This document shows positions 52,718 to 64,000 of a DNA stretch of 64,000 nucleotides, one piece after another. The stretch lies in assembly GCF_014697475.1 (NCBI RefSeq), contig NZ_JACJRV010000012.1, positions 62,001-126,000 on the forward strand, given 5' to 3'. The notes under the pieces are model-generated. The model was given only the letters and a program-made list of their open reading frames with translations, was not told the DNA's origin and did no database searches. Position 1 is the stretch's first letter. Each line of letters opens with the position of its first letter. Position numbers and translations under genes: made by a program. Source of the stretch: Nostoc sp. FACHB-152. GTDB lineage: Bacteria > Cyanobacteriota > Cyanobacteriia > Cyanobacteriales > Nostocaceae.

Positions 52718-54007
52718 ATGACTCCAGTCGATATTCTCATTCTCTCCAATGGGCCAGGGGAAATCACAACCTGGGTGCGTCCAGTTGTGAAAGCATTGCG
52801 GCAAAAACTAGGAGATGACCGCTCTCAGGTAAGAATTTCTGTAGTGTTGTCACCTTGCCCGAATGCGAGTGGTAAGGAAGCTGCGATCGCTCGTTCTTAC
52901 CCAGAAGTTGATAGAGTTCAGAAAGCAGAATATTTTTGGCAATTTTTGCTTTGGGGAAAAACTGCTGAGAATTGGGATTGGAGTCGTCGTGGTGTCGTAG
53001 TTTTCCTCGGTGGCGATCAAATTTTCCCTGTGATAATTGGTAAAAAATTGGGATATCGCACTGTAGTCTACGCCGAATGGGAAGCCCGTTGGCATAGCTT
53101 GATTGACCGCTTTGGTGTGATGAAGCCGAAAGTAGCTGAGAAATTATCTCAGAAATACGCCGATAAATTCACAGTTGTGGGCGATTTAATGCTAGAAGCA
53201 CACAACTCACTCCCCACTCCCAACTCCCAACTCCCCACGCCCCACTTTCCCACCATCGGTATTCTTCCTGGTTCAAAACCCGCAAAATTAACTCAAGGGG
53301 TTCCCTTAACTTTAGCTATTGCTGAATACATCCACGCCAAAAAACCGGAAATTAAGTTCGTTATTCCTGTAGCACCGACGTTAGACTTAGAAACCTTAGC
53401 CAGTTTTGCAGATCCGCAGAAAAACCCTTTTATTAAAATTTTTGGCTCCAATGGTGCTGAGTTAATTCTTCCAGAAGAGAATCACAACGAATCAATCTCT
53501 ACTAATAAACTACCTGTCCTGAAAACAATAACAGGTACAACAGTGGAACTGTGGAGAGAAACACCTGCCTATGGAATCTTATCTAATTGTTGTCTCTGTT
53601 TAACTACAGTTGGCGCAAATACGGCTGAACTTGGTTCTTTAGGCGTACCGATGCTTGTATTGCTGCCAACTCAACAACTTGATGCGATGCGTTCTTGGGA
53701 TGGTTTACCAGGATTATTAGCTAATTTACCAGGAGTGGGTACAACATTTGCCAAATTAATTAACCGGCTATTTCTGCGGCGTAAGGGTTTACTAGCATGG
53801 CCGAATATTTGGGCGCAAGAAGAGATAGTTCCAGAATTGGTAGGTCAACTCCAGCCGCAAGAAATTGGCGAAATGGTACTAGATTTGTTAGCGCATCCAG
53901 AAAAATTAGAACAAATGCGGAACAAACTTAGACGTGTTCGTGGCGAAAGCGGCGCAGCGCAAAAAATAGCGCAGATTGTCTGCGAGGAAATTGAGAAGAT
54001 AGCGTAA
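52718..54007 (+). CDS. Lipid-A-disaccharide-synthase-related protein
   Basis: 429 residues. ILILSNGPGEITTWVRPVVK, VVFLGGDQIFPVIIGKKLGY and LTTVGANTAELGSLGVPMLV are the family signatures of the LpxB-related cyanobacterial/plant group, with a GT-B-like fold. It probably transfers a sugar onto a lipid; the reaction is not proven. Residues about 165-180 (HNSLPTPNSQLPTPHF) are encoded by a Nostoc-type short repeat lying in frame within the gene (about 53205-53252), probably a surface-loop insertion. Confidence 0.9.
   Translation: MTPVDILILSNGPGEITTWVRPVVKALRQKLGDDRSQVRISVVLSPCPNASGKEAAIARSYPEVDRVQKAEYFWQFLLWGKTAENWDWSRRGVVVFLGGDQIFPVIIGKKLGYRTVVYAEWEARWHSLIDRFGVMKPKVAEKLSQKYADKFTVVGDLMLEAHNSLPTPNSQLPTPHFPTIGILPGSKPAKLTQGVPLTLAIAEYIHAKKPEIKFVIPVAPTLDLETLASFADPQKNPFIKIFGSNGAELILPEENHNESISTNKLPVLKTITGTTVELWRETPAYGILSNCCLCLTTVGANTAELGSLGVPMLVLLPTQQLDAMRSWDGLPGLLANLPGVGTTFAKLINRLFLRRKGLLAWPNIWAQEEIVPELVGQLQPQEIGEMVLDLLAHPEKLEQMRNKLRRVRGESGAAQKIAQIVCEEIEKIA
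53205..53252 (+). repeat. CCCCACTCCCAACTC-type repeat inside a coding gene
   Basis: CACTCCCCACTCCCAACTC and CCAACTCCCCACGCCCCAC are the short repeats usually found between genes in Nostoc-like genomes. Here they are in frame within the LpxB-related gene and add the Pro/Ser-rich loop SLPTPNSQLPTPHF. Confidence 0.75.
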
Positions 54008-54069
54008 GCAATTACGAATTACGTTAGCGAAGCGGTAGCGAGCCTGCGAGCGTCATTACGAATTATCAA

Positions 54070-54453
54070 TTAGTCAGACTGTCCATCACGCCGCCCCAGT
54101 TCATAAATGCCACAACCGATGCAGGCAAGTATACCCATACTAATTGCCCAACTGCGACCTAAGCTGATTTCTACGCCCCAGTTACATAAACTGCCTATGC
54201 CCAAAAACGGCACGATGCTAAATAATGAGGCGTAAAAAGCGTTTTGGGATTCTCTGGCTTTGCGAGTTTTTTCAAATTCTGATTGGCTAGTATAAAGCGA
54301 TCGCTCGGCAAAATTAAACCAACGGTTTAACTGTTCAATCACCCATTCACTGAACGGGAAAAACCCTAAGTACAACGCTAACGACCACAAACTAGCACCA
54401 GCGATCGCAACGGTATCTAAATCAAAACGGAAAGGCAATATATCAGTCAGCAT
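54070..54453 (-). CDS. Hypothetical membrane protein
   Basis: 127 residues with about three membrane segments (about 15-35 AIAGASLWSLALYLGFFPF, 74-95 FYASLFSIVPFLGIGSLC, 100-118 SWAISMGILACIGCGIYEL) and a charged middle (SQSEFEKTRKARESQN). Not a family I recognise. It converges with the LpxB-related gene; the 62-bp gap holds a GCGAAGCGGTAGCGAGCCTG short repeat. Confidence 0.7.
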   Translation of the reverse strand: MLTDILPFRFDLDTVAIAGASLWSLALYLGFFPFSEWVIEQLNRWFNFAERSLYTSQSEFEKTRKARESQNAFYASLFSIVPFLGIGSLCNWGVEISLGRSWAISMGILACIGCGIYELGRRDGQSD

Positions 54454-54747
54454 AGCTTGATCGCGTCCTGCAAATAGTCATCTTGGCCTTTTTTCAATGC
54501 CCAATAGACTTATTCAGCAATTTTAAGCATAAACGCTTACAGTATTTCAACTATCTAATAGCTTTATCTGAGTGTAGATCAGTTTTTATACTAAGTTGAG
54601 TTCAGAATTTACTCTGAGTAACTGAGACAATGCAGTTATCAACAGGATTTTCGTCTGAAAATAACATCCTCATAATTTCTTTATATTTATTTAGTACTTA
54701 TGTTATTACTACCAAATTCAGCTCCCCAGATTGAAATGGCAAGTTGA

Positions 54748-55158
54748 ATGATATTAAAGAACATAAATATGCAATATCTCTACCATTTAGCCAATGCTAG
54801 CCTGACACTGCGATTTGTAGAATACTTGATTTCTAGACCTTATTGTTCTCAAAGTATTGTCACAGTCATTAGCCAAGTTGATGGCTGGATAATCAATATA
54901 AAAATGAAATCTCCACTTCATCCTCAACAGGATGGAAACATGAGAGCTTTTTTGAGTGAATTAGGAGTAGTTTACTCCCCATCACAGCTCATAAATTTAG
55001 TGTTGACTAGCTTGGACACTGGAGCCTCTGTGGTTGATGTTATGCATCGCTATCAAGTTGCTATAGTTTCGCATGGGCTTCCTCAAAGCAGTGAGATTGA
55101 AGCTTTCCGGCAGCACTTTATCAATGGACTGGGTTACTGTCCCCAAAACTTAGCTTAA
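54748..55158 (+). CDS. Hypothetical protein
   Basis: 136 residues (129 if ATG 54769 is used). A soluble, mixed-helical protein: YHLANASLTLRFVEYLISRP, then NMRAFLSELGVVYSPSQLIN and LVLTSLDTGASVVDVMHRYQ. It has no signal peptide and no family I can name. Its stop codon overlaps a perfect terminator, so it is a single gene. Confidence 0.6.
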   Translation: MILKNINMQYLYHLANASLTLRFVEYLISRPYCSQSIVTVISQVDGWIINIKMKSPLHPQQDGNMRAFLSELGVVYSPSQLINLVLTSLDTGASVVDVMHRYQVAIVSHGLPQSSEIEAFRQHFINGLGYCPQNLA

Positions 55159-55190
55159 TTCTCGTTCTACAACACTTGTAGAACGAGAAT
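55158..55190 (+). terminator. Terminator overlapping the stop codon
   Basis: Perfect 15-bp stem ATTCTCGTTCTACAA/TTGTAGAACGAGAAT with loop CAC. The first stem base is the last base of the stop codon of the preceding gene. Confidence 0.8.
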
Positions 55191-55395
55191 AATTAACTAA
55201 ACTGCGAAGGGGTAGGATGCTTAGTTCTTCGTTGCTATTTTTACATAGCTCAAAAATAGTTAATTAGACTGGAGTCTACTCTGCCTCTGAGTGAGGGAAA
55301 TCAGAGAGAGAATAAATAATTAAACTGGTAAAACTTCTGCGAAGTCCACTGTGATGCTAAAAATGAAGAAGAGGCGATCGCACTCAATCTATATC

Positions 55396-55550
55396 TACGA
55401 GAGAAAATTTCCTGCTATCACTATATCTGGTTCAGATTGTAAAAGCTCACCAGGTTGACAATTCAATACTTTGGAAATCTCGTTTAAGTGTTCTGGTTTT
55501 AATCTTAGTATTAAGTCAAACTTATGAATTCTGTACAATTGAAAACCAAC
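55396..55550 (-). pseudogene. C-terminal remnant of an XRE/HTH gene
   Basis: Minus-strand frame directly after the hydrolase stop: FQLYRIHKFDLILRLKPEHL then NEISKVLNCQPGELLQSEPD and IVIAGNFLS, ending in TAG. LNEISKVLNCQPGELLQ is the C-terminal helix pattern of Cro/C1-type HTH regulators. It has no start codon, since it begins where the GC-rich hydrolase ends, and is in the same frame as that gene. It is a remnant of host DNA cut by the insertion. Confidence 0.6.
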
Positions 55551-57299
55551 CTAATTTTTTACATTTGCTGAATTAACTGCCGTTTTCTTGAGCCTTTCTA
55601 TCCGGCGTTGGAGAACCTCTACACGCCCTGAATCTCCCAGGAAAAAGACGCAGCGAGTGCCTTCTGCGGGGGTTTTGAGACTGATGAGGTAGTCGGTGAC
55701 GATGTTGTTGACACAAGCATTGCCGGCGGTGAGGGCTACACCGTGCTGTTCGCCCTCGACGGTCAGCAGGCTCGCGCCGAGCGTCTTGGCGAGGCTGATG
55801 CCGCCCTCGTGCGGGGTGGCCGGATCGCCAGTGACCGACACGACCAAGGTTTTAGGGAGTCCTTTGATGTTCTGGGCGTAGGGGTAGCCGAGGGTGGGTT
55901 TCACGCGCCAATGCTCACAGAGGTCACGGGCGTTGACGGGCCGGCCGGTGTCTAGGAAGGGCGCAACCTTGAAAATGTCGCGCGTCATTGCGCTCTCCTG
56001 CTCAGGCGTGTGGCGTTCCTCGTCAAGGCAGTTAATGGCCAGCAGGGACTCGTTGCCATTGCCGTAGCTACCGTCGGCACTGCGCTGGCTGAGGATATCG
56101 CGCAAGAACAGCAGGGTTTTACCGCTTCCGGCTTTGAGTTCGGTGATGGCTTTGATCACCGCAGGCCAGCCCGCCTCGTCGTAAAGCCCAGTGGTCACAC
56201 CGTCAATTACGGCGGTGTAAGTGACCTTGCGTCCGTCTGCGGTGATGATCGGTTTATCAATCAGTGGCCGCACGATCTGCTGGAAGGCGGCGGTAGCTTG
56301 CTTGGGATCGGTGCCGAGCGGACAAGTCGGGGTTTTAGCGCAGAAGGCCGCCATGTTGTCGAAGGCACGCTGGAAACCCGCAAACTGGACGAGGCGACGC
56401 TCGGTGGTGCCGGTGGTGGGGTCGATCGCGCCGTCGAGTACCATGGCCCGCACGTTCTGTGGGAAGGTTTCAGCGTAAATCGCGCCGAGCCGGGTACCGT
56501 AGCTGGCGCCGAAAAAGGAGAGCTTGTCATCGCCAAGCACCGCGCGGAGTACGTCCATGTCACGGGCGACATCGCGCGTGCCGACGTGAGCCAGCACGTC
56601 CTCACCGCCGGAACGCTCGGCGCATTTTTGGTACAACTGACGGGTCTCGTGGTCGGTGTAGTCCTTGCCCCCAGAGTTGATCGAGTTGACCAACTTGTCG
56701 GCCTCTCGTTCGGCATCGGTGAAGCAGTCTAGGGCTGGTGTCGAGGCCGCAACCCCGCGTGGGTCGAACCCGATCAGGTCAAACTGCTTGGCGATCGGAC
56801 TGTCGTCCAAGTCCTTTGCCACCATGACCGCGTAGCTCATCCCGGAGTAGCCGGGGCCGCCTGGGTTGAGCAGTAGGGAACCGATTCGTTTGCTCGGCTT
56901 GCCCTTCGCCGGTACGCGCAGGAGTGCAATCTGCGCGGTTCGCCCGCCGGGGTTCTGGTAATCGAGCGGCACCTCAAGCCGAGCGCATTTGAAGGTGTCG
57001 TTGGCGAAGTTTTTAGCGTCGGCATCCGTGGTGGCGTAGCCCTCGCACGAGCCGAAGGTCAGTTTCTGGTCGTAGAAGCGTTTCAGCTTTGCAGGGATAG
57101 TTCCTCCAGGCTCTGACGGGTAACCGAATGTGGGCTGGCCGCAGGCACTAAGAACCAGTATCACGGCCCCAATCATTAGCGAGCTTCGGACGTGGGGCTG
57201 GTGAGCAAGCATGGTTCTCCTCTTAGCGGTAACCGTTGGCTCTGAGGCGTGCGTGGGTAGGCCAGGATCTTGCTTGTGGTTAGAGAAAATGTGAGACAT
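55551..57299 (-). CDS. TAP-type alpha/beta hydrolase lipoprotein (actinobacterial-like)
   Basis: 582 residues. An N-terminal leader of 29 residues (MSHIFSNHKQDPGLPTHASE) precedes the lipoprotein signal MLAHQPHVRSSLMIGAVILV with lipobox LSACG at Cys 53. The tripeptidyl-aminopeptidase-like hydrolase follows: LLLNPGGPGYSGMSY, FDLIGFDPRG, nucleophile FFGASYGTR (Ser 266), DP in VSVTGDPATPHEGG and His in VEGEQHGVAL. The sequence is GC-rich and strongly resembles mycobacterial or other actinobacterial exported proteases. The C-terminus looks extended (RVEVLQRRIERLKKTAVNSA). The gene stands out from the host AT-rich DNA and was probably acquired. Confidence 0.88.
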   Translation of the reverse strand: MSHIFSNHKQDPGLPTHASEPTVTAKRRTMLAHQPHVRSSLMIGAVILVLSACGQPTFGYPSEPGGTIPAKLKRFYDQKLTFGSCEGYATTDADAKNFANDTFKCARLEVPLDYQNPGGRTAQIALLRVPAKGKPSKRIGSLLLNPGGPGYSGMSYAVMVAKDLDDSPIAKQFDLIGFDPRGVAASTPALDCFTDAEREADKLVNSINSGGKDYTDHETRQLYQKCAERSGGEDVLAHVGTRDVARDMDVLRAVLGDDKLSFFGASYGTRLGAIYAETFPQNVRAMVLDGAIDPTTGTTERRLVQFAGFQRAFDNMAAFCAKTPTCPLGTDPKQATAAFQQIVRPLIDKPIITADGRKVTYTAVIDGVTTGLYDEAGWPAVIKAITELKAGSGKTLLFLRDILSQRSADGSYGNGNESLLAINCLDEERHTPEQESAMTRDIFKVAPFLDTGRPVNARDLCEHWRVKPTLGYPYAQNIKGLPKTLVVSVTGDPATPHEGGISLAKTLGASLLTVEGEQHGVALTAGNACVNNIVTDYLISLKTPAEGTRCVFFLGDSGRVEVLQRRIERLKKTAVNSANVKN

Positions 57300-57363
57300 G
57301 GGGATAAACTCCTTCGAGCTAGTTATTGATGGGTTCAGGTATCAACGGGGTCATCGATTCCTT

Positions 57364-57752
57364 TTACGCTGCATTGCTGGTTTCATCCTTGATTTCGGTA
57401 AATGCTTTTAATTCGAGCATTTTGCCGCAGCGAAAGCACCAGACATCGCAGTACGAGTAATGAGTAGCCCTCCGGTCTTTGTCCTTCAGGGTGAGGTCGC
57501 CCAGTGCCGTGACGAAATCCCTCTCAGCAATTAAGTTCGCAACGATATTCAAAGGCGGTTCCACATACTCTGTTACCATCCATTGACGAACGACTTCTTT
57601 TCCGTTCAGGGCTTGTCGCCGACAAATGTCCATTCCATGTCGTCGGCGCAGAACGACAAGAATCCTTCATAGTTGCCTTGAGCGATCGCCGCGTTTGCCG
57701 CTTCTAAAATTGCTTTATTGTTCTCTGAAATCCGAATCTTTCCTCTGTTCAA
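57364..57752 (-). pseudogene. Frameshifted NTF2/SnoaL-like gene
   Basis: On the minus strand the first part reads NNKAILEAANAAIAQGNYEG then FLSFCADDMEWTFVGDKP and hits TGA at 57606-57608. One base added in the CCC just before restores the frame into LNGKEVVRQWMVTEYVEPPL and HYSYCDVWCFRCGKMLELKA. Together they form a complete NTF2-like protein, so a one-base deletion has split it. The start is probably TTG 57752, since no ATG is seen. It is cyanobacterial in composition. Confidence 0.75.
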
Positions 57753-57803
57753 AGCAACAAAGTGGTGTGAGTTGTTATGCTGTTGCCCCTCACTGGTTTA
57801 CTT

Positions 57804-58091
57804 CTAGAGACTGGTAAACGGCTTACATTGAATCGCCTTCACATTTCGCAGATAGTCCAACTGTGGCTCGAAGTCAGTCGGACAGAAGACATAAACATTG
57901 TCCTGCGATCGGCTAATGACTAAACGGTAGCTGCGTGGAATCCCTTTAGAACTTTCGATCACTTCGATTCTGGGAATCACTTGTAAACTAACTTGAGCCA
58001 GGGATGGAAAATTGAACAGTAGGAGTACGCCGAACAGAATTGTGATTGCGGTTGTAGTTGTGATTTTGGTTGAAAAAATCTTTCGGTTCAT
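57804..58091 (-). CDS. Small secreted hypothetical protein
   Basis: 95 residues. A signal peptide (about 1-32, TTTTAITILFGVLLLFNFP ending LAQ) then a small beta-rich domain VSLQVIPRIEVIESSKGIPR with two Cys (VFCPTDFEP and IQCKP) that may form a disulfide. No family recognised. The gene lies 17 bp downstream of the peptidoglycan-binding gene and in the same direction, so the two are probably an operon. Confidence 0.7.
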   Translation of the reverse strand: MNRKIFSTKITTTTAITILFGVLLLFNFPSLAQVSLQVIPRIEVIESSKGIPRSYRLVISRSQDNVYVFCPTDFEPQLDYLRNVKAIQCKPFTSL

Positions 58092-58108
58092 TAGAAATCT
58101 TCTGTGGC

Positions 58109-58546
58109 TTATGGTTGTGTAATGTTCTGTTGTTTCCAGGGAAGTGGGGATCGATAGGGGTTTTCGTGCATATCCAGGACTTCCCAGGTTGTTGGATTGA
58201 CTCGCCCTGTAACTGGGATTTTGTATCGTCTCTGGAGATCGCGTACCGCAGACGCTGTGACCGCACCAAAGGTGCCATCGACGATCGCCCCTTTTGGATT
58301 GCCTAACCTCACACCTGCGGCTCCTAAAAAGCCATTGTCTTGAAGAATGCGTTGTAACAATTGCACATTTCTGCCGCGATCGCCTTGGCGTAAGGTAGGT
58401 AAGGTTAAATCAGTGTAGGCAGTGGCGATCAGAATGGGGGAGGTTTGTTGTGGAGGAATGCTGTGTGCGATCGCTGGATGAGTGAGTGAACCTCCGAGCA
58501 ATCCTGTCGCTATCGTTATGAATCTGAAAATGGTTTGAAGTTTCAT
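58109..58546 (-). CDS. Secreted peptidoglycan-binding-domain protein
   Basis: 145 residues. A signal peptide (about 1-27, FITIATGLLGGSLTHPAIAH) is followed by a PG_binding_1 domain (about 52-128): LPTLRQGDRGRNVQLLQRIL, VDGTFGAVTASAVRDLQRRY, VTGRVNPTTWEVL. It should bind the cell wall in the periplasm, without an enzymatic domain. It forms a two-gene unit with the small secreted protein after it. Confidence 0.88.
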   Translation of the reverse strand: MKLQTIFRFITIATGLLGGSLTHPAIAHSIPPQQTSPILIATAYTDLTLPTLRQGDRGRNVQLLQRILQDNGFLGAAGVRLGNPKGAIVDGTFGAVTASAVRDLQRRYKIPVTGRVNPTTWEVLDMHENPYRSPLPWKQQNITQP

Positions 58547-58704
58547 GATTGTCCTCCTGATAGATCAGTTCTAGTTAGCATCAATTTTGTGTCGGAGTGA
58601 TTGACAAAAAACTGGGGCTTATTCATGGTGTTCCTTGTGTAGTACGTTTGACTCTATCTCGCATTGCTGAAACGAGTTTGTTTCGGCATCATCCGATTTA
58701 GACA

Positions 58705-59082
58705 CTAATGTTCAGAATTCACTTGCCATGTAATCACAATGATTTCCGCAAACGGTAAGACAAGTATTAGCCGCGAAAACGCTCCTAAAATGGCTTCCAT
58801 CGTCCAGTTCTGACTCTGAACCTCCCAGATCATCGAAACAATATAGAATCCCATGACCAACCAGGGTAGAATTACTGCTGAATTCCGTCTGCGATAGAAG
58901 CGGATCGTCCTCTCGCGCCAAAATGGGAAGGTGCTGAGGAGACAAAAAATGTAGGAGGTTCCTGCACTGATGAACAAGCTTCTTTGAAGACCCGAAGGCA
59001 GGTTTGGGTATCCAAGTGCGATCGCCGTCAAACAAACTCCGAGCGCGAGGTACAGAAAAGTAAACAAGGTAAATCGTTTCAT
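58705..59082 (-). CDS. Hypothetical membrane protein
   Basis: 125 residues from ATG 59082, with GGAG 9 bases upstream. About four membrane helices: FTFLYLALGVCLTAIALGY (5-23), SLFISAGTSYIFCLLSTFPF (34-53), VILPWLVMGFYIVSMIWEV (68-86) and LGAFSRLILVLPFAEIIVIT (98-117). No family recognised. Confidence 0.7.
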   Translation of the reverse strand: MKRFTLFTFLYLALGVCLTAIALGYPNLPSGLQRSLFISAGTSYIFCLLSTFPFWRERTIRFYRRRNSAVILPWLVMGFYIVSMIWEVQSQNWTMEAILGAFSRLILVLPFAEIIVITWQVNSEH

Positions 59083-59102
59083 TATTTCTTCTCCGGTAAA
59101 GC

Positions 59103-59444
59103 TTATTCTCTGTACCAGATACGCACACATTGAAAGCAATTGATTGCAAGACCCTGACTGATCATCACTGGGTGGAAAGCATTACTGGTCGTCACTCCGT
59201 AGACATCATCACTTGTGCCTTCAATCCGATCAGGTAAAACAACAGTTTCAACATTGATCACCTGTATCGTTGTATTTTCAATCCACTGATTTACAGTACT
59301 AACAACATCAGAGAAGGATTCGTAATCGGAAGCTCCGCCGAAGGGCCCCCGTTCAGTAATCCGAGGTGCAAAATCTTTGCACTGAATCATTTGATTTACC
59401 ACCTTAAAACTGTAGAGTTGAGCATCAATTCGAGTAGTGGGCAT
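59103..59444 (-). CDS. Hypothetical protein
   Basis: 113 residues. MPTTRIDAQLYSFKVVNQMI, SFSDVVSTVNQWIENTTIQV and NVETVVLPDRIEGTSDDVYG look like a small soluble alpha/beta protein; two Cys lie near the end (INCFQCVRIWYRE). It is 20 bp upstream of the membrane-protein gene on the same strand, so the two probably form a unit. No family recognised. Confidence 0.65.
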   Translation of the reverse strand: MPTTRIDAQLYSFKVVNQMIQCKDFAPRITERGPFGGASDYESFSDVVSTVNQWIENTTIQVINVETVVLPDRIEGTSDDVYGVTTSNAFHPVMISQGLAINCFQCVRIWYRE

Positions 59445-59518
59445 CGCCCACCATTTTTAAAACCTTTCACGGTAAAGCTTTGTGGGCAGTGCTAGCCCTA
59501 CGAGATATATTCCAAAAC

Positions 59519-60310
59519 TTAAGCCAACCTTGCCAGTAAACCCCTAAGAACAGAGGCAAAAGCATGAAAGCTGATATGGGCTAACATTGCAGCCTCTAGC
59601 GAATATTGCCAAAAGAGCCAGCCAAACGCGATTCCCCCAATCCCATTCAGTAACAACGCCCGAATAATCACAACTGGAGTGAGGGGAACGATCGCAGCAG
59701 TCGCTGGCAGGTGTAGTAGTCCAAATACCAAAGCGGCTAGAACAATCGCACCTTGGTATATTCCTTGGCTTGGCAGCGTAATGCCTTGTTTGAAGATTTT
59801 CCATGCTATCCAAACAAGCAGTGACATTAAGCCCCAGCGCATCAGAATTTCCTCAGTGATGCCGCCATAGAACATTGCTGTGAGCAAATTCAACCAACTT
59901 GGCACTGTATTATTGGCTGCCCGTAGCTCTTCAGGTAGGACAGGTTGCATCAACTGATCGAGCAACAAGAGAACGATCGCCGCCGCTGCACCCACACCCA
60001 AGCTCCACTTCATCTCAACGGCAAAAGATGGAGACTTAGCGGTGTGAAACACCCAATGATCAATCAAATGGGAGCTTAATCCAACACGATAGGCACAACC
60101 AATTCCGATTAGAATGCTGATTGCTAGTAGAATTGAATACTGTAGTCCTTGCAGAAGCATTAAAATCCCCAATGGTGGCACTTTTTCCAGTATTTCTGGC
60201 GACAGTTTCGCTAACTGTTGCTCGACTAAAGGAATAGACGCGATCGTAAACATCACAATTCCCACACTGCCCAATACAAATAAAATCCCGAATTGTTTCA
60301 GAATTGCCAT
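59519..60310 (-). CDS. CPBP-family intramembrane glutamic endopeptidase (1)
   Basis: 263 residues with about eight membrane helices. Motif 1 is GGITEEILMRWG with Glu 153-154, motif 2 is LVFGLLHLP and motif 3 is LAHISFHAFASVL, all with the expected catalytic Glu and His. Composition is cyanobacterial. CPBP proteins cleave in the membrane or protect against peptides; the substrate is unknown. It is followed on the same strand by two unrelated-composition CPBP genes. Confidence 0.9.
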   Translation of the reverse strand: MAILKQFGILFVLGSVGIVMFTIASIPLVEQQLAKLSPEILEKVPPLGILMLLQGLQYSILLAISILIGIGCAYRVGLSSHLIDHWVFHTAKSPSFAVEMKWSLGVGAAAAIVLLLLDQLMQPVLPEELRAANNTVPSWLNLLTAMFYGGITEEILMRWGLMSLLVWIAWKIFKQGITLPSQGIYQGAIVLAALVFGLLHLPATAAIVPLTPVVIIRALLLNGIGGIAFGWLFWQYSLEAAMLAHISFHAFASVLRGLLARLA

Positions 60311-60338
60311 TGGTTTAACCTCCAGATGATCCGTCCTA

Positions 60339-61076
60339 TCAGCCCATGCCAGCAGCTACCATCACTGGAATTGTGGGCAAGTTGAAAACGACGTGAACAA
60401 TGACAGCACTCCAGACCGAGCCGCTGCGGCGGAAGACCTCGGCAGTGGCGAGACCAGCGACTACGGCTGCGGGAAAGACGATGTTGATGCCGTGACCAAG
60501 GGCAAAGATCAAGGTGCTACCCACGACCCCGATGAACGAACCGTAGCGCAGCAGCGCGTTAGCGACGACACCCCGAAAGAGCAACTCCTCACCAAGAGGC
60601 GTGACGATTCCGAGGAACAACGTGGCTAAAACCAGGGATAGTACTCCGCCTCTGCCGCCCTCTGTGTACACACCCTGAACATTGTTGGTGTTCCCGGTGA
60701 TCTGAATCCAGCCCAGAACTGCCAATCCCTTGAGTACGAAGGCAACCAATCCGACTCCGATCGCGATGAGCAGCCAGTGCTTAGAGACTGGGCGCACGCC
60801 AAAGGCGTTCAGGGAACGAATCCGCAATAGTGCTGCCGCTGCAAACCCGGCAATTCCGGCGATGCCAGAGAGCGAGGTGAAAACCAGTCCATAGATTACG
60901 GGGTCAAGACCGAGCCGCTTGAGTTGTGAACCAACCCCGAATCCGATGATCGCGAAGACGACGAGACCGACGGCGATCTCAAGCCAGCCGGGACGGGAAA
61001 CCTTATTGGGCAGAACCAAGGACGCAACGGGGAGCTTCCCTGGCTTTTGTGGGTGGTTAGAAGACACTTTAGACAT
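60339..61076 (-). CDS. CPBP-family intramembrane glutamic endopeptidase (2), GC-rich
   Basis: 245 residues. The N-terminal 28 residues (MSKVSSNHPQKPGKLPVASL) resemble the leader of the hydrolase lipoprotein at 57.3 kb. About eight membrane segments follow, with motif 1 PLGEELLFRGVVANAL (Glu 163-164), motif 2 LIFALGHGINIVFPAAVVAG and motif 3 SAVIVHVVFNLPT. The gene is GC-rich like the hydrolase, unlike CPBP gene 1. It is likely transferred from an actinobacterium; the substrate is unknown. Confidence 0.9.
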   Translation of the reverse strand: MSKVSSNHPQKPGKLPVASLVLPNKVSRPGWLEIAVGLVVFAIIGFGVGSQLKRLGLDPVIYGLVFTSLSGIAGIAGFAAAALLRIRSLNAFGVRPVSKHWLLIAIGVGLVAFVLKGLAVLGWIQITGNTNNVQGVYTEGGRGGVLSLVLATLFLGIVTPLGEELLFRGVVANALLRYGSFIGVVGSTLIFALGHGINIVFPAAVVAGLATAEVFRRSGSVWSAVIVHVVFNLPTIPVMVAAGMG

Positions 61077-61127
61077 GGTGATGAAGTTCTCTGGTACATT
61101 TGCTGATGGTTTTACGAAATTATGAGA

Positions 61128-62111
61128 TCATCGATAATCCTTCCGATGGCTTTGGGAAAGGGGTTCGGATGCCTCATCGCGTTTGAACACCCGGAAAACA
61201 ATCACCAGGAAAACGGGAATCAGCACGAGAGAGGTGATGTCGTAGAATCTTGCATGGTACTCACTGATGCTGAACAGGGCTGGCGTAGTGAAGAAGCTTC
61301 CAGACCAGTTGAACAAAAGAAAGTACGCGATGTTGTTAGCGAAATGTGCGCCGATCGCAAGCTCGGTGGTGCCGTCGATCAATGAAACGATCGCAAACAG
61401 CAGACCCGTGCCGACGAAGAGTCCGAGGAACATCCCGATCCATCCGCCCTCCTGTGACTCTGGATTGGTGGCGTGCGGCAGCGTGAAGATCACAGCCGAG
61501 ACGATCGCCAGAAACACGCGGTTCGACCAGATCAGGCTTGCGCCCTGCACGATGTACCCGCGAAAGAAAAGCTCCTCGGTGGTCGTCTGGATCGCAGTGA
61601 TGACCAGTGCGATCGGTACAAAGAGCGCGAACGTCTTGAGGTCGGAGTTGAAGGAGAAGCTATCGGGGTAGAGGAGGTACTGCCCCAGTCCGGCTAGCAG
61701 CACCCACGGCACAAACCCAGCCACAAAGCCGTGACCGATGCGCCGCCAACTGATCTTCTCCCGCGCCGTGACGAGTGTCCGGGGATGACGCTGGTGGATG
61801 AGGGTGACGGCGATGAGGATTCCCGCGAGCCACACCGGAAAACCTGCCATGCTCACGACAAAGCCCCCCACCCGACCGAACGCGGCATAATCCAGCCGAC
61901 CGAAAGCCGCGACACCCTCTTTGCCGCCGATCGCGAGCGCGACGAGCGCACTGGCGAAGTTGGCAACGACCATCCAGGCAAAGAGGATGATCATCAGCCC
62001 CAGAACATACCGCCACCACCGATACTTACCCCACCGGGCAGCCTCGACGTAAGTCGCGTCTTTCACTTCTGTTCCGATTCCCTGGTGTCTTTTGATTGCT
62101 TTAATCTTCAT
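61128..62111 (-). CDS. CPBP-family intramembrane glutamic endopeptidase (3), GC-rich
   Basis: 327 residues from ATG 62111 with AAAGGAG upstream. The first 15 or so codons are AT-rich, then composition becomes GC-rich. About nine membrane segments; motif 1 TTTEELFFRGYIVQGASLIW (Glu 179-180), motif 2 VIFTLPHATNPE, and a final motif region LAIGAHFANNIAYFLLFNWS with the catalytic His/Asn. The Arg/Lys-rich C-terminus (VFKRDEASEPLSQSHRKDYR) is cytoplasmic. Transferred composition as for CPBP 2. Confidence 0.9.
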   Translation of the reverse strand: MKIKAIKRHQGIGTEVKDATYVEAARWGKYRWWRYVLGLMIILFAWMVVANFASALVALAIGGKEGVAAFGRLDYAAFGRVGGFVVSMAGFPVWLAGILIAVTLIHQRHPRTLVTAREKISWRRIGHGFVAGFVPWVLLAGLGQYLLYPDSFSFNSDLKTFALFVPIALVITAIQTTTEELFFRGYIVQGASLIWSNRVFLAIVSAVIFTLPHATNPESQEGGWIGMFLGLFVGTGLLFAIVSLIDGTTELAIGAHFANNIAYFLLFNWSGSFFTTPALFSISEYHARFYDITSLVLIPVFLVIVFRVFKRDEASEPLSQSHRKDYR

Positions 62112-62277
62112 CTTGGTCTCCTTTACTCATATATATATATGTAGTACTTGGAAGTTAGCGAACCTGTTTTGCAGTCATTCCAGTGAGGCGTTTAAATTCA
62201 ACAAAACAGGCAAAAACTAGCGAGCAAATGCGCGATCGCCGACTAGCACTCACAAACAAGTCAGGTATAAATAGAGC

Positions 62278-62913
62278 TTAGGGACTTGCTGCAACAATGG
62301 CTGTCATCAACTCTGTCATTTTCCAGCGTGCGGTATATCGAATGGTATTGATAAATAGGACTGGGGCAGTTGTCACTCCACTGTGTATTCCACTTTCGAT
62401 ATCTTCGTGGATGCGATCAACATATACTTGTTTAAACAAGTCTTTGAGAAACTGAGGAATATCAAGCCCCAAATCATTGGCGTACTCTACAAGATAACCG
62501 TTCTCTAACTTCTGTTGATAAACAAATAAAGTATCGTGCATTGACCAAAACTGTCCTTGGGCAGCGGCGGCTTCAGCGACTTCGGCGGCTCGTTGAGCAT
62601 GAGGATGAATCTGTGTTTGCGGAAAATGACGGAAGATAAAGCATAAATAATCTTCTCCAAAAGAAGCACTCAGCTCTTGTTTGATTCCTTGAATCATCCT
62701 GTAAACGTCCGCACTTATAGAGCATTGATAGTCTCCATACATCACCAGCACGACCTTGGCACTCAGCACACCTTGCATCCAATCTTGAGTTGAAGGGGGT
62801 ACAAGTAAAGAACTGTAGCTGCGATCATCGTTCATTTTTTTACGTTTGCAGCAAGTATGGAACTTTGCAATTGACTTGCTCAATCCATTGACTGCATCTC
62901 TATTTGCATACAT
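62278..62913 (-). CDS. DsbA/thioredoxin-fold protein with altered active site
   Basis: 211 residues (185 from ATG 62835). No signal peptide is evident. VLVMYGDYQCSISADVYRMI corresponds to the DsbA CxxC site but has CSIS, so only one Cys is present. ICFRHFPQTQIHPHAQRAAE and SGVTTAPVLFINTIRYTAR (cis-Pro loop TAPVL) complete the fold. It may bind or reduce via a monothiol route, or be redox-inactive. It resembles the thioredoxin-like domains attached to NhaA. Start is uncertain. Confidence 0.75.
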   Translation of the reverse strand: MYANRDAVNGLSKSIAKFHTCCKRKKMNDDRSYSSLLVPPSTQDWMQGVLSAKVVLVMYGDYQCSISADVYRMIQGIKQELSASFGEDYLCFIFRHFPQTQIHPHAQRAAEVAEAAAAQGQFWSMHDTLFVYQQKLENGYLVEYANDLGLDIPQFLKDLFKQVYVDRIHEDIESGIHSGVTTAPVLFINTIRYTARWKMTELMTAIVAASP

Positions 62914-63056
62914 TCAATATAGGAAATTGCCTTCAAGCTGTCTTCTATAGCGAGTTAAAATTTTTACAGTATAAATTGATAGAGCAATCATGCCATCGTG
63001 GAGTAGAAGGCTAGTTATAACTCAAGTTAGAATCCCAATTCTATCGAAAGTACATC

Positions 63057-63146
63057 CTATAAATTAACAATGCCGCGTTTAACGGCAACAGTTACAGCTT
63101 GGGTGCGTTCGTCCTTGACGTTGCCGTAGGCATCGCTCACATCTAA
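63057..63146 (-). pseudogene. C-terminal remnant of LuxR/NarL-type regulator
   Basis: On the minus strand DVSDAYGNVKDERTQAVTVA then VKRGIVNL, ending in TAG, matches the end of a LuxR-type HTH domain (DRTQAVTVALKRGI). Stops bound it upstream (TAG at 63147-63149), so only about 29 residues remain. Confidence 0.65.
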
Positions 63147-63239
63147 CTAGCAATAAGAAGCGCCTCTTACAACCAGGATGAGTACGATCCTGGTTGCAAA
63201 ATAGCGGGTTGAGGCATTGATATTTGCTGGCTTCTGCAC

Positions 63240-63833
63240 TTAGTTGCGATCGCTGGCACGATCGATCAGTGCGTTTGAGGGCAAGCTCGGATCAAGTACC
63301 TTGCGCGCACTGTCAACCCCTACAACGGGCAGTGTACCCGGATCAAGCATACCGAGTTGAACCAATACACTCGCCTGATCCCAGTAGAGATGTTCGTGGG
63401 CTAGCTTGTCATCACGAAACTGAACAATTACTACCAATGCCACTTCAACCCGTTTAAGAGTCGGAGCAATGCCAGGTAGCATCCAGTCCATCTGGATGGT
63501 ATGAGTGAACTTAAGTAGCATTTCATCGACGAGTTGATTGGTTCCGATTGTGCGCGAGACCGGAGTCAGCTCCATGTCCGGCGGCATCTGTGGAATGAAG
63601 TACTTGGAATAAAACTCGCGCAGTGCCGGTTTCCCTACTCCCCCAATCATTACCGGAATGCCGTTAACGTAAGCATCCTCAACCATCGTGGCGAGAGTAT
63701 CTTCAGTGTTGTGAGCGTCAAACTCAAGCCGCAGATGCTCATCCCAGAGTTCTTGCAAAAACTTCTGGGCTGGTGTCAGGTTGCTAGTTGCCTTTCCATT
63801 TGCTTGTTCGTCTACAGATTGCTGTTTGACCAT
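63240..63833 (-). CDS. NTF2/SnoaL-like protein
   Basis: 197 residues. KFLQELWDEHLRLEFDAHNT, EDTLATMVEDAYVNGIPVMI with a Gly-Gly-Val-Gly loop, LREFYSKYFIPQMPPDMELT and VALVVIVQFRDDKLAHEHLY are the NTF2-like cone pattern. DHLYWDQAS-type C-terminal residues suggest a small-molecule or steroid-like binding pocket. Enzyme activity unknown. It has a longer C-terminal extension (about residues 155-197) than typical SnoaL proteins. Confidence 0.85.
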   Translation of the reverse strand: MVKQQSVDEQANGKATSNLTPAQKFLQELWDEHLRLEFDAHNTEDTLATMVEDAYVNGIPVMIGGVGKPALREFYSKYFIPQMPPDMELTPVSRTIGTNQLVDEMLLKFTHTIQMDWMLPGIAPTLKRVEVALVVIVQFRDDKLAHEHLYWDQASVLVQLGMLDPGTLPVVGVDSARKVLDPSLPSNALIDRASDRN

Positions 63834-64000
63834 GATTGGATTCTCCTAGTTCTATCTATTTCAAAAGCTGGGATTGACAATTAGCTTTGGGGTATTTTGT
63901 AGCTCCATTACCGCCTCGTCCTTTTTTCCGAAATTTTGAAGACTTTAAATTCTTTTAAGGTGTGATGACACCGGACTCCTGAGAAAGCTAATGGGTTTCC
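63834..64000. other. Window edge, promoter region of NTF2-like gene
   Basis: 167 bp upstream of the NTF2-like start (minus strand), with no gene or clear motif. Confidence 0.4.

Follow-up and report, generated by a model that had tools for sequence, protein, structure and literature searches.

Shuffled families of expression sites that keep one conserved 5′ end are known, the variable lipoproteins of mycoplasmas being an example. The expression of newly arrived genes is an open question. As far as the account in PMC11111574 extends, a deletion or a tandem duplication that needs no long homology can provide horizontally transferred genes with a captured promoter. For translational coupling and for bicistronic designs with a leader cistron, as PMC12548453 presents them, it is proposed that translating an upstream ORF makes a structured start downstream of it accessible.

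In the window, which is the whole 64,000-nt stretch of Nostoc sp. FACHB-152 DNA analysed here, the genes for a TAP-like alpha/beta hydrolase (TAP) and for a CPBP protease begin with MSHIFSNHKQDPGLP (start at 57299, minus strand) and MSKVSSNHPQKPGKLP (start at 61076, minus strand), respectively. An earlier note had claimed that they share an N-terminus and the DNA upstream of it, and that their proteins are not homologous. The ORF check confirmed both ORFs and both N-termini, and the proteins are unrelated, one being a TAP-like alpha/beta hydrolase and the other an Rce1-like CPBP protease. The match is longer than the note had listed: when 400 nt around each start were compared, the local alignment spanned about 105 nt, beginning some 60 nt 5′ of the ATGs and reaching into the coding part, and the leader model puts the shared stretch at the two positions that open Table 1. 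This alignment, a check of the kind that the note had proposed, gave a similarity better than chance: under either of two scoring schemes, the observed score was reached by none of 500 dinucleotide-shuffled pairs.

Table 1. Features of the window around the TAP and CPBP genes
Feature	Position	Strand	Source
Shared 5′ unit (leader and first codons) ahead of the TAP hydrolase	57253..57357	-	Alignment, BLASTN, nhmmer
Shared 5′ unit ahead of the CPBP protease	61030..61135	-	ORF list, leader model
29-codon extension MSHIFSNHKQDPGLPTHASEPTVTAKRRT, from the transplanted ATG to the probable own start of TAP	57213..57299	-	
TAP-like alpha/beta hydrolase from its probable native start	55551..57212	-	ORF list, domain match
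ATCGATGAC junction, where 215 bp are deleted between direct repeats of 9 bp, by comparison with L072	57350..57358	-	
89-aa ORF upstream of the junction; SnoaL-like match under the curated cut-off	57364..57633	-	
CPBP (Rce1-like) intramembrane protease; the unit is its own 5′ end	60339..61076	-	
CPBP-A, second CPBP gene, directly upstream of the unit-bearing CPBP	61128..62111	-	
CPBP-C, third CPBP gene, directly downstream of the unit-bearing CPBP	59519..60310	-	
125-aa ORF, no Pfam match	58705..59082	-	

The homology of the two leaders is confirmed. BLASTN among the fetched loci matched them at 64.4% over 104 nt (E 4e-6), and nhmmer with a model of 28 leaders, the TAP copy being in its training set, recovered the TAP leader with E 9.5e-22. 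When the leader model was run on the own genome, both copies, which are training sequences, were found with E 5e-23 and 1e-20 among four matches at E ≤ 0.5, the other two being weaker. The BLAST search of the own genome with the CPBP leader did not report the TAP copy; its best other match, of 32 nt (contig 158 of G000, E 0.01), was taken as chance. The pair is also absent among the 20 largest repeat families listed by an ungapped repeat finder.

Searched with the TAP and CPBP proteins, 145 family genomes yielded further copies of both genes; those that were fetched can be aligned in their N-termini and leaders, and a first leader HMM found more leader copies in 20 fetched regions. With the sequence-only model from the 28 leaders, 46 of 217 family genomes gave a total of 80 matches at E ≤ 1e-4 (hand count), 28 of these being the training sequences. 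At E ≤ 0.5, some match was present in 195 genomes; most of these matches are weak and were treated as background. Across the window and 60 fetched regions, 81 nhmmer matches at E ≤ 0.02 were examined; 79 have a start codon and two have none. The 79 units were sorted by a script according to their ORF content, with recipient labels from Pfam, into 31 CPBP, 21 TAP, five oligopeptidase remnant, four esterase, three SDR, three SnoaL-like and two RidA units, and ten others. These ten comprise short ORFs as well as CPBP and TAP units that are truncated or remnants, and two of them lie directly ahead of a truncated copy of the 58705-type gene (L117 and L133). The 5′ unit, from about −60 to +45, is thus shown to recur ahead of at least four further unrelated genes.

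Almost all CPBP units (30 of 31) precede an ORF of at least 230 aa. Among the 26 TAP-type units, that is, the 21 above and five of the others, the frame stays open in 22 across the tag and on into the coding sequence of TAP, 21 of these having been classed as TAP because they are open; 16 precede a full-length TAP and four are remnants. Other units lie ahead of truncated CPBPs or short ORFs. The unit-bearing loci are same-strand gene arrays, some of them on plasmids typed as conjugative, and a CPBP on a Chroococcidiopsis plasmid carries the tag. The plasmid arrays L197, L199 and L200, the last two typed as conjugative, contain many small enzymes, mostly on the same strand, and between them encode RidA, NTF2-like, ester cyclase, SDR, cupin, DsbA and CPBP proteins; a class A beta-lactamase is encoded in L197, and a TetR gene is present in L197 and L200. 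In the window, three different CPBP genes are consecutive (59519–62111, minus strand). All three were matched, some partially, in eight of 20 fetched regions, and an extra copy of CPBP-A occurs in L062, L064 and L078. The window TAP has 582 aa and its nearest relative, L150, has 581 aa, against 551–553 aa in the other full-length TAPs of the clade; these two share a C-terminal extension of about 30 residues (55551–55640 in the window, minus strand).

Leader and tag were absent from the TAP relatives inspected in Nocardia, Mycolicibacterium, Prescottella, Rhodococcus and a Polaromonas plasmid, and the tag was absent from the CPBP relatives inspected in Nonomuraea, Devosia, Sphingomonas, Agrobacterium and Sinorhizobium. 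For TAP, this inspection covered 23 of the 39 loci from the database search, and, where Prescottella, Rhodococcus and Pseudonocardia have the gene on a plasmid, it was confined to annotated N-termini. Two Streptomyces TAPs (L187 and L189) align weakly upstream of the ATG, from query residue 1 or 7, which was taken as alignment extension because a start codon is missing at the matching place. A native tag on non-cyanobacterial homologues, which would speak against capture, was therefore not seen among the TAP and CPBP relatives inspected. The idea of the earlier note, a common translation start captured by foreign genes, is supported by the unrelated proteins, by these relatives without the unit and by the additional unrelated recipients.

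The TAP of the Polaromonas plasmid (L196) is 76% identical to the window TAP, is devoid of the leader and adjoins a prolyl oligopeptidase and a TetR gene, which points to exchange of this gene set between cyanobacteria and betaproteobacteria. In the tree, the tagged TAPs form two clades: a Nostoc clade, beside Polaromonas, and a clade of Calothrix, Cyanosarcina and Nodosilinea, which adjoins Nostoc mirabile (without the unit) and some actinobacteria. Their union in one clade was rejected on the body alone (p-AU 5e-48), in a test for which the group was defined by the tag and which was run after the first tree had been seen. Two or more gains of the unit, its movement between TAPs, or several losses would therefore explain this distribution. 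The upstream end of the CPBP unit overlaps the stop codon of CPBP-A, whose ORF ends at 61128, and this overlap is suggestive of a direction from CPBP to TAP.

The junctions are diverse. In the window, ATCGATGAC joins the 89-aa ORF and TAP; compared with L072, the left arm is identical at 343 of 351 positions and the right arm at 147 of 158, and the two repeat copies are found at L072 792–800 and 1007–1015, 215 bp apart. This deletion trimmed an existing TAP leader and did not create the sharing between CPBP and TAP, whose original junction is too diverged to be read. In L067, an esterase 5′ end meets a prolyl-oligopeptidase 3′ part at GGCGATCGC (L067:8997-9119), and similar units occur in L072, L126, L151 and L155. 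A HIP1 palindrome is contained in GGCGATCGC, and the fusion suggests that HIP1 sites may serve as deletion points. A search of the Polaromonas oligopeptidase for the motif had no match, and the fusion is therefore read from the cyanobacterial copies alone. In L118 and L140, the TAP leader is fused to mid-TAP. The upstream region of one gene is found joined to an unrelated gene, as in capture, and no fixed recombination point of the kind found in an integron-type cassette array was detected.

The start of the hydrolase that the earlier note had placed 29 codons later, with a lipoprotein-type signal, is probably the own start of TAP in the window (57212). It is preceded by AAGAGGAGAACC, the signal was recognised by eye, and the TAP of Nostoc mirabile, without the unit, has a matching ATG preceded by AGAAGGAGAATC, a similar ribosome site. 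Of 25 RidA matches beginning at residue 1, 24 are without the unit and have the inner ATG in common with the tagged RidA of L074; SDRs without the unit in L139 and L152 have, by eye, the same inner start and 5′ context as the tagged SDRs. Since the inner starts of TAP, RidA and SDR are kept, the transplanted start usually precedes the native start and does not replace it. Exceptions are the RidA of L152, without its own N-terminus, and the inner Met of TAP, which is Leu in the truncated L128 and Ile in the full-length Calothrix L065, where the outer start or a later Met must therefore serve. Ahead of the SnoaL-like gene stands an ORF of 12 codons with a CPBP-like beginning, closed by a stop codon.

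Over −30 to +35 of the start codons, the predicted folding of 12 tagged TAP genes has a mean of −6.2 kcal/mol at the outer start and −15.0 kcal/mol at the inner start. For starts without the unit, the predicted values are −19.0 (Polaromonas, annotated start), −14.4 (Prescottella), −4.6 (N. mirabile) and −3.9 kcal/mol (Rhodococcus). The weak outer and strong inner folding fits a leader cistron that would open the native start, and the upstream ORF ends near the downstream start or runs through it, as in a leader cistron. The scan for sigma-70 consensus promoters, limited to this type, found none on the coding strand of either unit, and the coding strand showed no terminator either; at CPBP, one promoter-like and one terminator-like site occur on the opposite strand. 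The Rfam search of 57000–61400 had no match. A perfect palindrome, GGGGTCATCGATGACCCC, is present in the TAP leaders of several relatives, and a role as an operator was set aside: its counterpart in CPBP arrays is imperfect and falls within the last part of the CPBP gene upstream, and the window has lost the left half through the deletion.

An HMM trained on 29 distinct CPBP units recovered, at E ≤ 0.01, all 21 TAP, both RidA, all three SnoaL-like and all four esterase units, and none of the five oligopeptidase or three SDR units (SDR E 0.02–0.66); these E-values apply to the fetched set, which was partly chosen with the mixed model, and the esterase value (about 2e-5) is insignificant on its own when scaled to 217 genomes. 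The non-coding half of this model still recovered 18 of 21 TAP and all three SnoaL-like units at E ≤ 0.01, with RidA and esterase failing, and its first 60 coding bases recovered one of 21 TAP and both RidA units. In the reverse direction, a model of 17 TAP units matched 29 of 31 CPBP units when the unit was used entire, 15 when it was limited to the non-coding half and one when it was limited to the coding half. A chance resemblance, or the convergence of strong translation starts, would find some support in the common ribosome-site and ATG context of the TAP and CPBP leaders; it was rejected by the shuffles and by this cross-family test, including the matches of the non-coding half alone, and its probability is practically nil. 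The earlier note also suggested that the peptide may be an N-terminal tag that had escaped recognition, with sorting or membrane insertion as possible roles; this found no support. Such a tag, which would be read by the cell and possibly by the CPBP protease itself, we regard as very unlikely. It would account for the SNH/SDH core seen in CPBP, TAP, esterase and oligopeptidase remnant and for the indels of the CPBP tag, which are multiples of three. Nevertheless, the non-coding half links the families best, the coding half being hardly detectable across them, and the peptide is weakly constrained, both of which make such a tag unlikely. Between the two TAP clades, the tag has a nucleotide identity of 0.65–0.74 and an amino-acid identity of 0.32–0.50, against 0.62–0.64 and 0.57–0.59 in the body (for instance, 0.72 and 0.41 against 0.62 and 0.57), and no conservation of the peptide beyond that of its DNA was found. 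This DNA is itself not exceptionally conserved, 6–46% of equal-width windows of the TAP body being as similar in nucleotides. The pN/pS of the CPBP tag is 0.67, against 0.33 in the rest (30 sequences), a value reached by none of 195 equal-width windows; that of the TAP tag is 0.97 against 0.43 (15 sequences), an imprecise value (bootstrap range 0.44–2.86), equalled or exceeded in 91 of 527 body windows. Constraint on the peptide is therefore weak, although the CPBP frame is kept. In addition, TAP orthologues without the tag exist, RidA and SDR, which are cytosolic by family, also bear it, and in the SnoaL-like gene (three loci) and the truncated 58705-type gene (two loci) the ORF of the unit stops before the next ATG, so that the peptide is not attached to these proteins. 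A role of the unit as a leader for translation is more likely than one as an address label of the protein.

How the leader came to stand before these genes is a separate matter. Cassette-type or site-specific recombination, integron-like or with an invertible expression site, would give a fixed 5′ end with exchangeable genes, as the single 5′ end, the several recipients and the same-strand arrays on plasmids could suggest. It is most improbable, because the boundaries of the shared stretch differ between recipients, Rfam found nothing in the region searched, and the 25 longest inverted pairs listed for 54000–64000 include no unit copy, although a 21-nt match of 76% touches the CPBP start. The repeated transplantation of the CPBP 5′ end upstream of the starts of other genes, by illegitimate recombination, is well supported. 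The main rival concerns its consequence: deletions and partial duplications in a fast-reshuffling array may have left the CPBP 5′ end before the next gene as neutral debris, with no role for the recipient, which would use its own ATG. This reading is quite possible, though short of an even chance. Several copies stand ahead of truncated or remnant genes, including the four TAP-type remnants, junctions differ from case to case, the window has a short-repeat deletion, the peptide is weakly constrained and a coding-strand promoter was not found. The remnants and truncated genes behind units, which fit debris, also count against a leader role, as do the native starts without the unit in N. mirabile and Rhodococcus, which are not structured. 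On the other hand, debris does not readily explain that most TAP-type units open into TAP, with the restriction on their classing given above, that they are open also in the second TAP clade, whose body is about 57% identical, and that a full-length Calothrix TAP has lost the inner Met.

The unit probably acts as a leader cistron that opens structured starts, and transplantation of the CPBP end together with this action is, as a whole explanation, favoured by a little over even chances. The shared stretch would be the 5′ end of CPBP: a leader of about 60 nt holding a ribosome-binding site, then the ATG and approximately 15 initial codons. Illegitimate recombination would have set it repeatedly upstream of the own starts of other genes, within same-strand arrays that Nostocales and a small number of other cyanobacteria acquired horizontally. 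Ribosomes would load easily at this weakly structured site, and we infer that their passage would open the structured native start behind it. The product may be an N-terminally extended protein, as for the in-frame TAP, RidA and SDR, or a coupled second cistron after a stop, as for the SnoaL-like gene. The stronger proposal is doubtful, although possible: that this is a natural bicistronic-design element, in which the CPBP translation start was transplanted, repeatedly and independently, before GC-rich foreign genes in cyanobacterial arrays that are in part on plasmids, and was kept by selection because its translation unlocks structured starts.

If this explanation is true, what is portable in this natural example, seen repeatedly in many genomes, would be a leader ORF with its translation start and not a promoter. 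N-termini common to neighbouring genes can then be recombination scars and can mislead the annotation of start sites. Among the best-ranked titles of the literature search, no description was found of one translation start recurring on several unrelated genes. The mycoplasma-type expression sites resemble this system in that one 5′ end is joined to different downstream sequences, but no invertible or site-specific switching was seen here, and the recipients are unrelated enzymes and not antigen variants. With coupling and bicistronic design, in so far as PMC12548453 presents them, the unit would share a translated upstream ORF, proposed here, ahead of a structured start; there the partners are neighbouring genes or engineered leaders, whereas here a natural unit is common to unrelated genes and is partly in frame. 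The promoter capture presented in PMC11111574 is similar in joining foreign genes to the upstream region of another gene by illegitimate recombination, with 9-bp microhomology by design in that account and, here, 9-bp repeats at the junction of the later deletion in the window. It differs, to the extent of the same account, in that an intergenic translation start and first codons are carried here, without an evident promoter, and in that one unit is found on several unrelated genes with the native start mostly kept. Against these sources, the capture of upstream regions by foreign genes is known, and the recurrence of one translation start on unrelated genes would be the new element.
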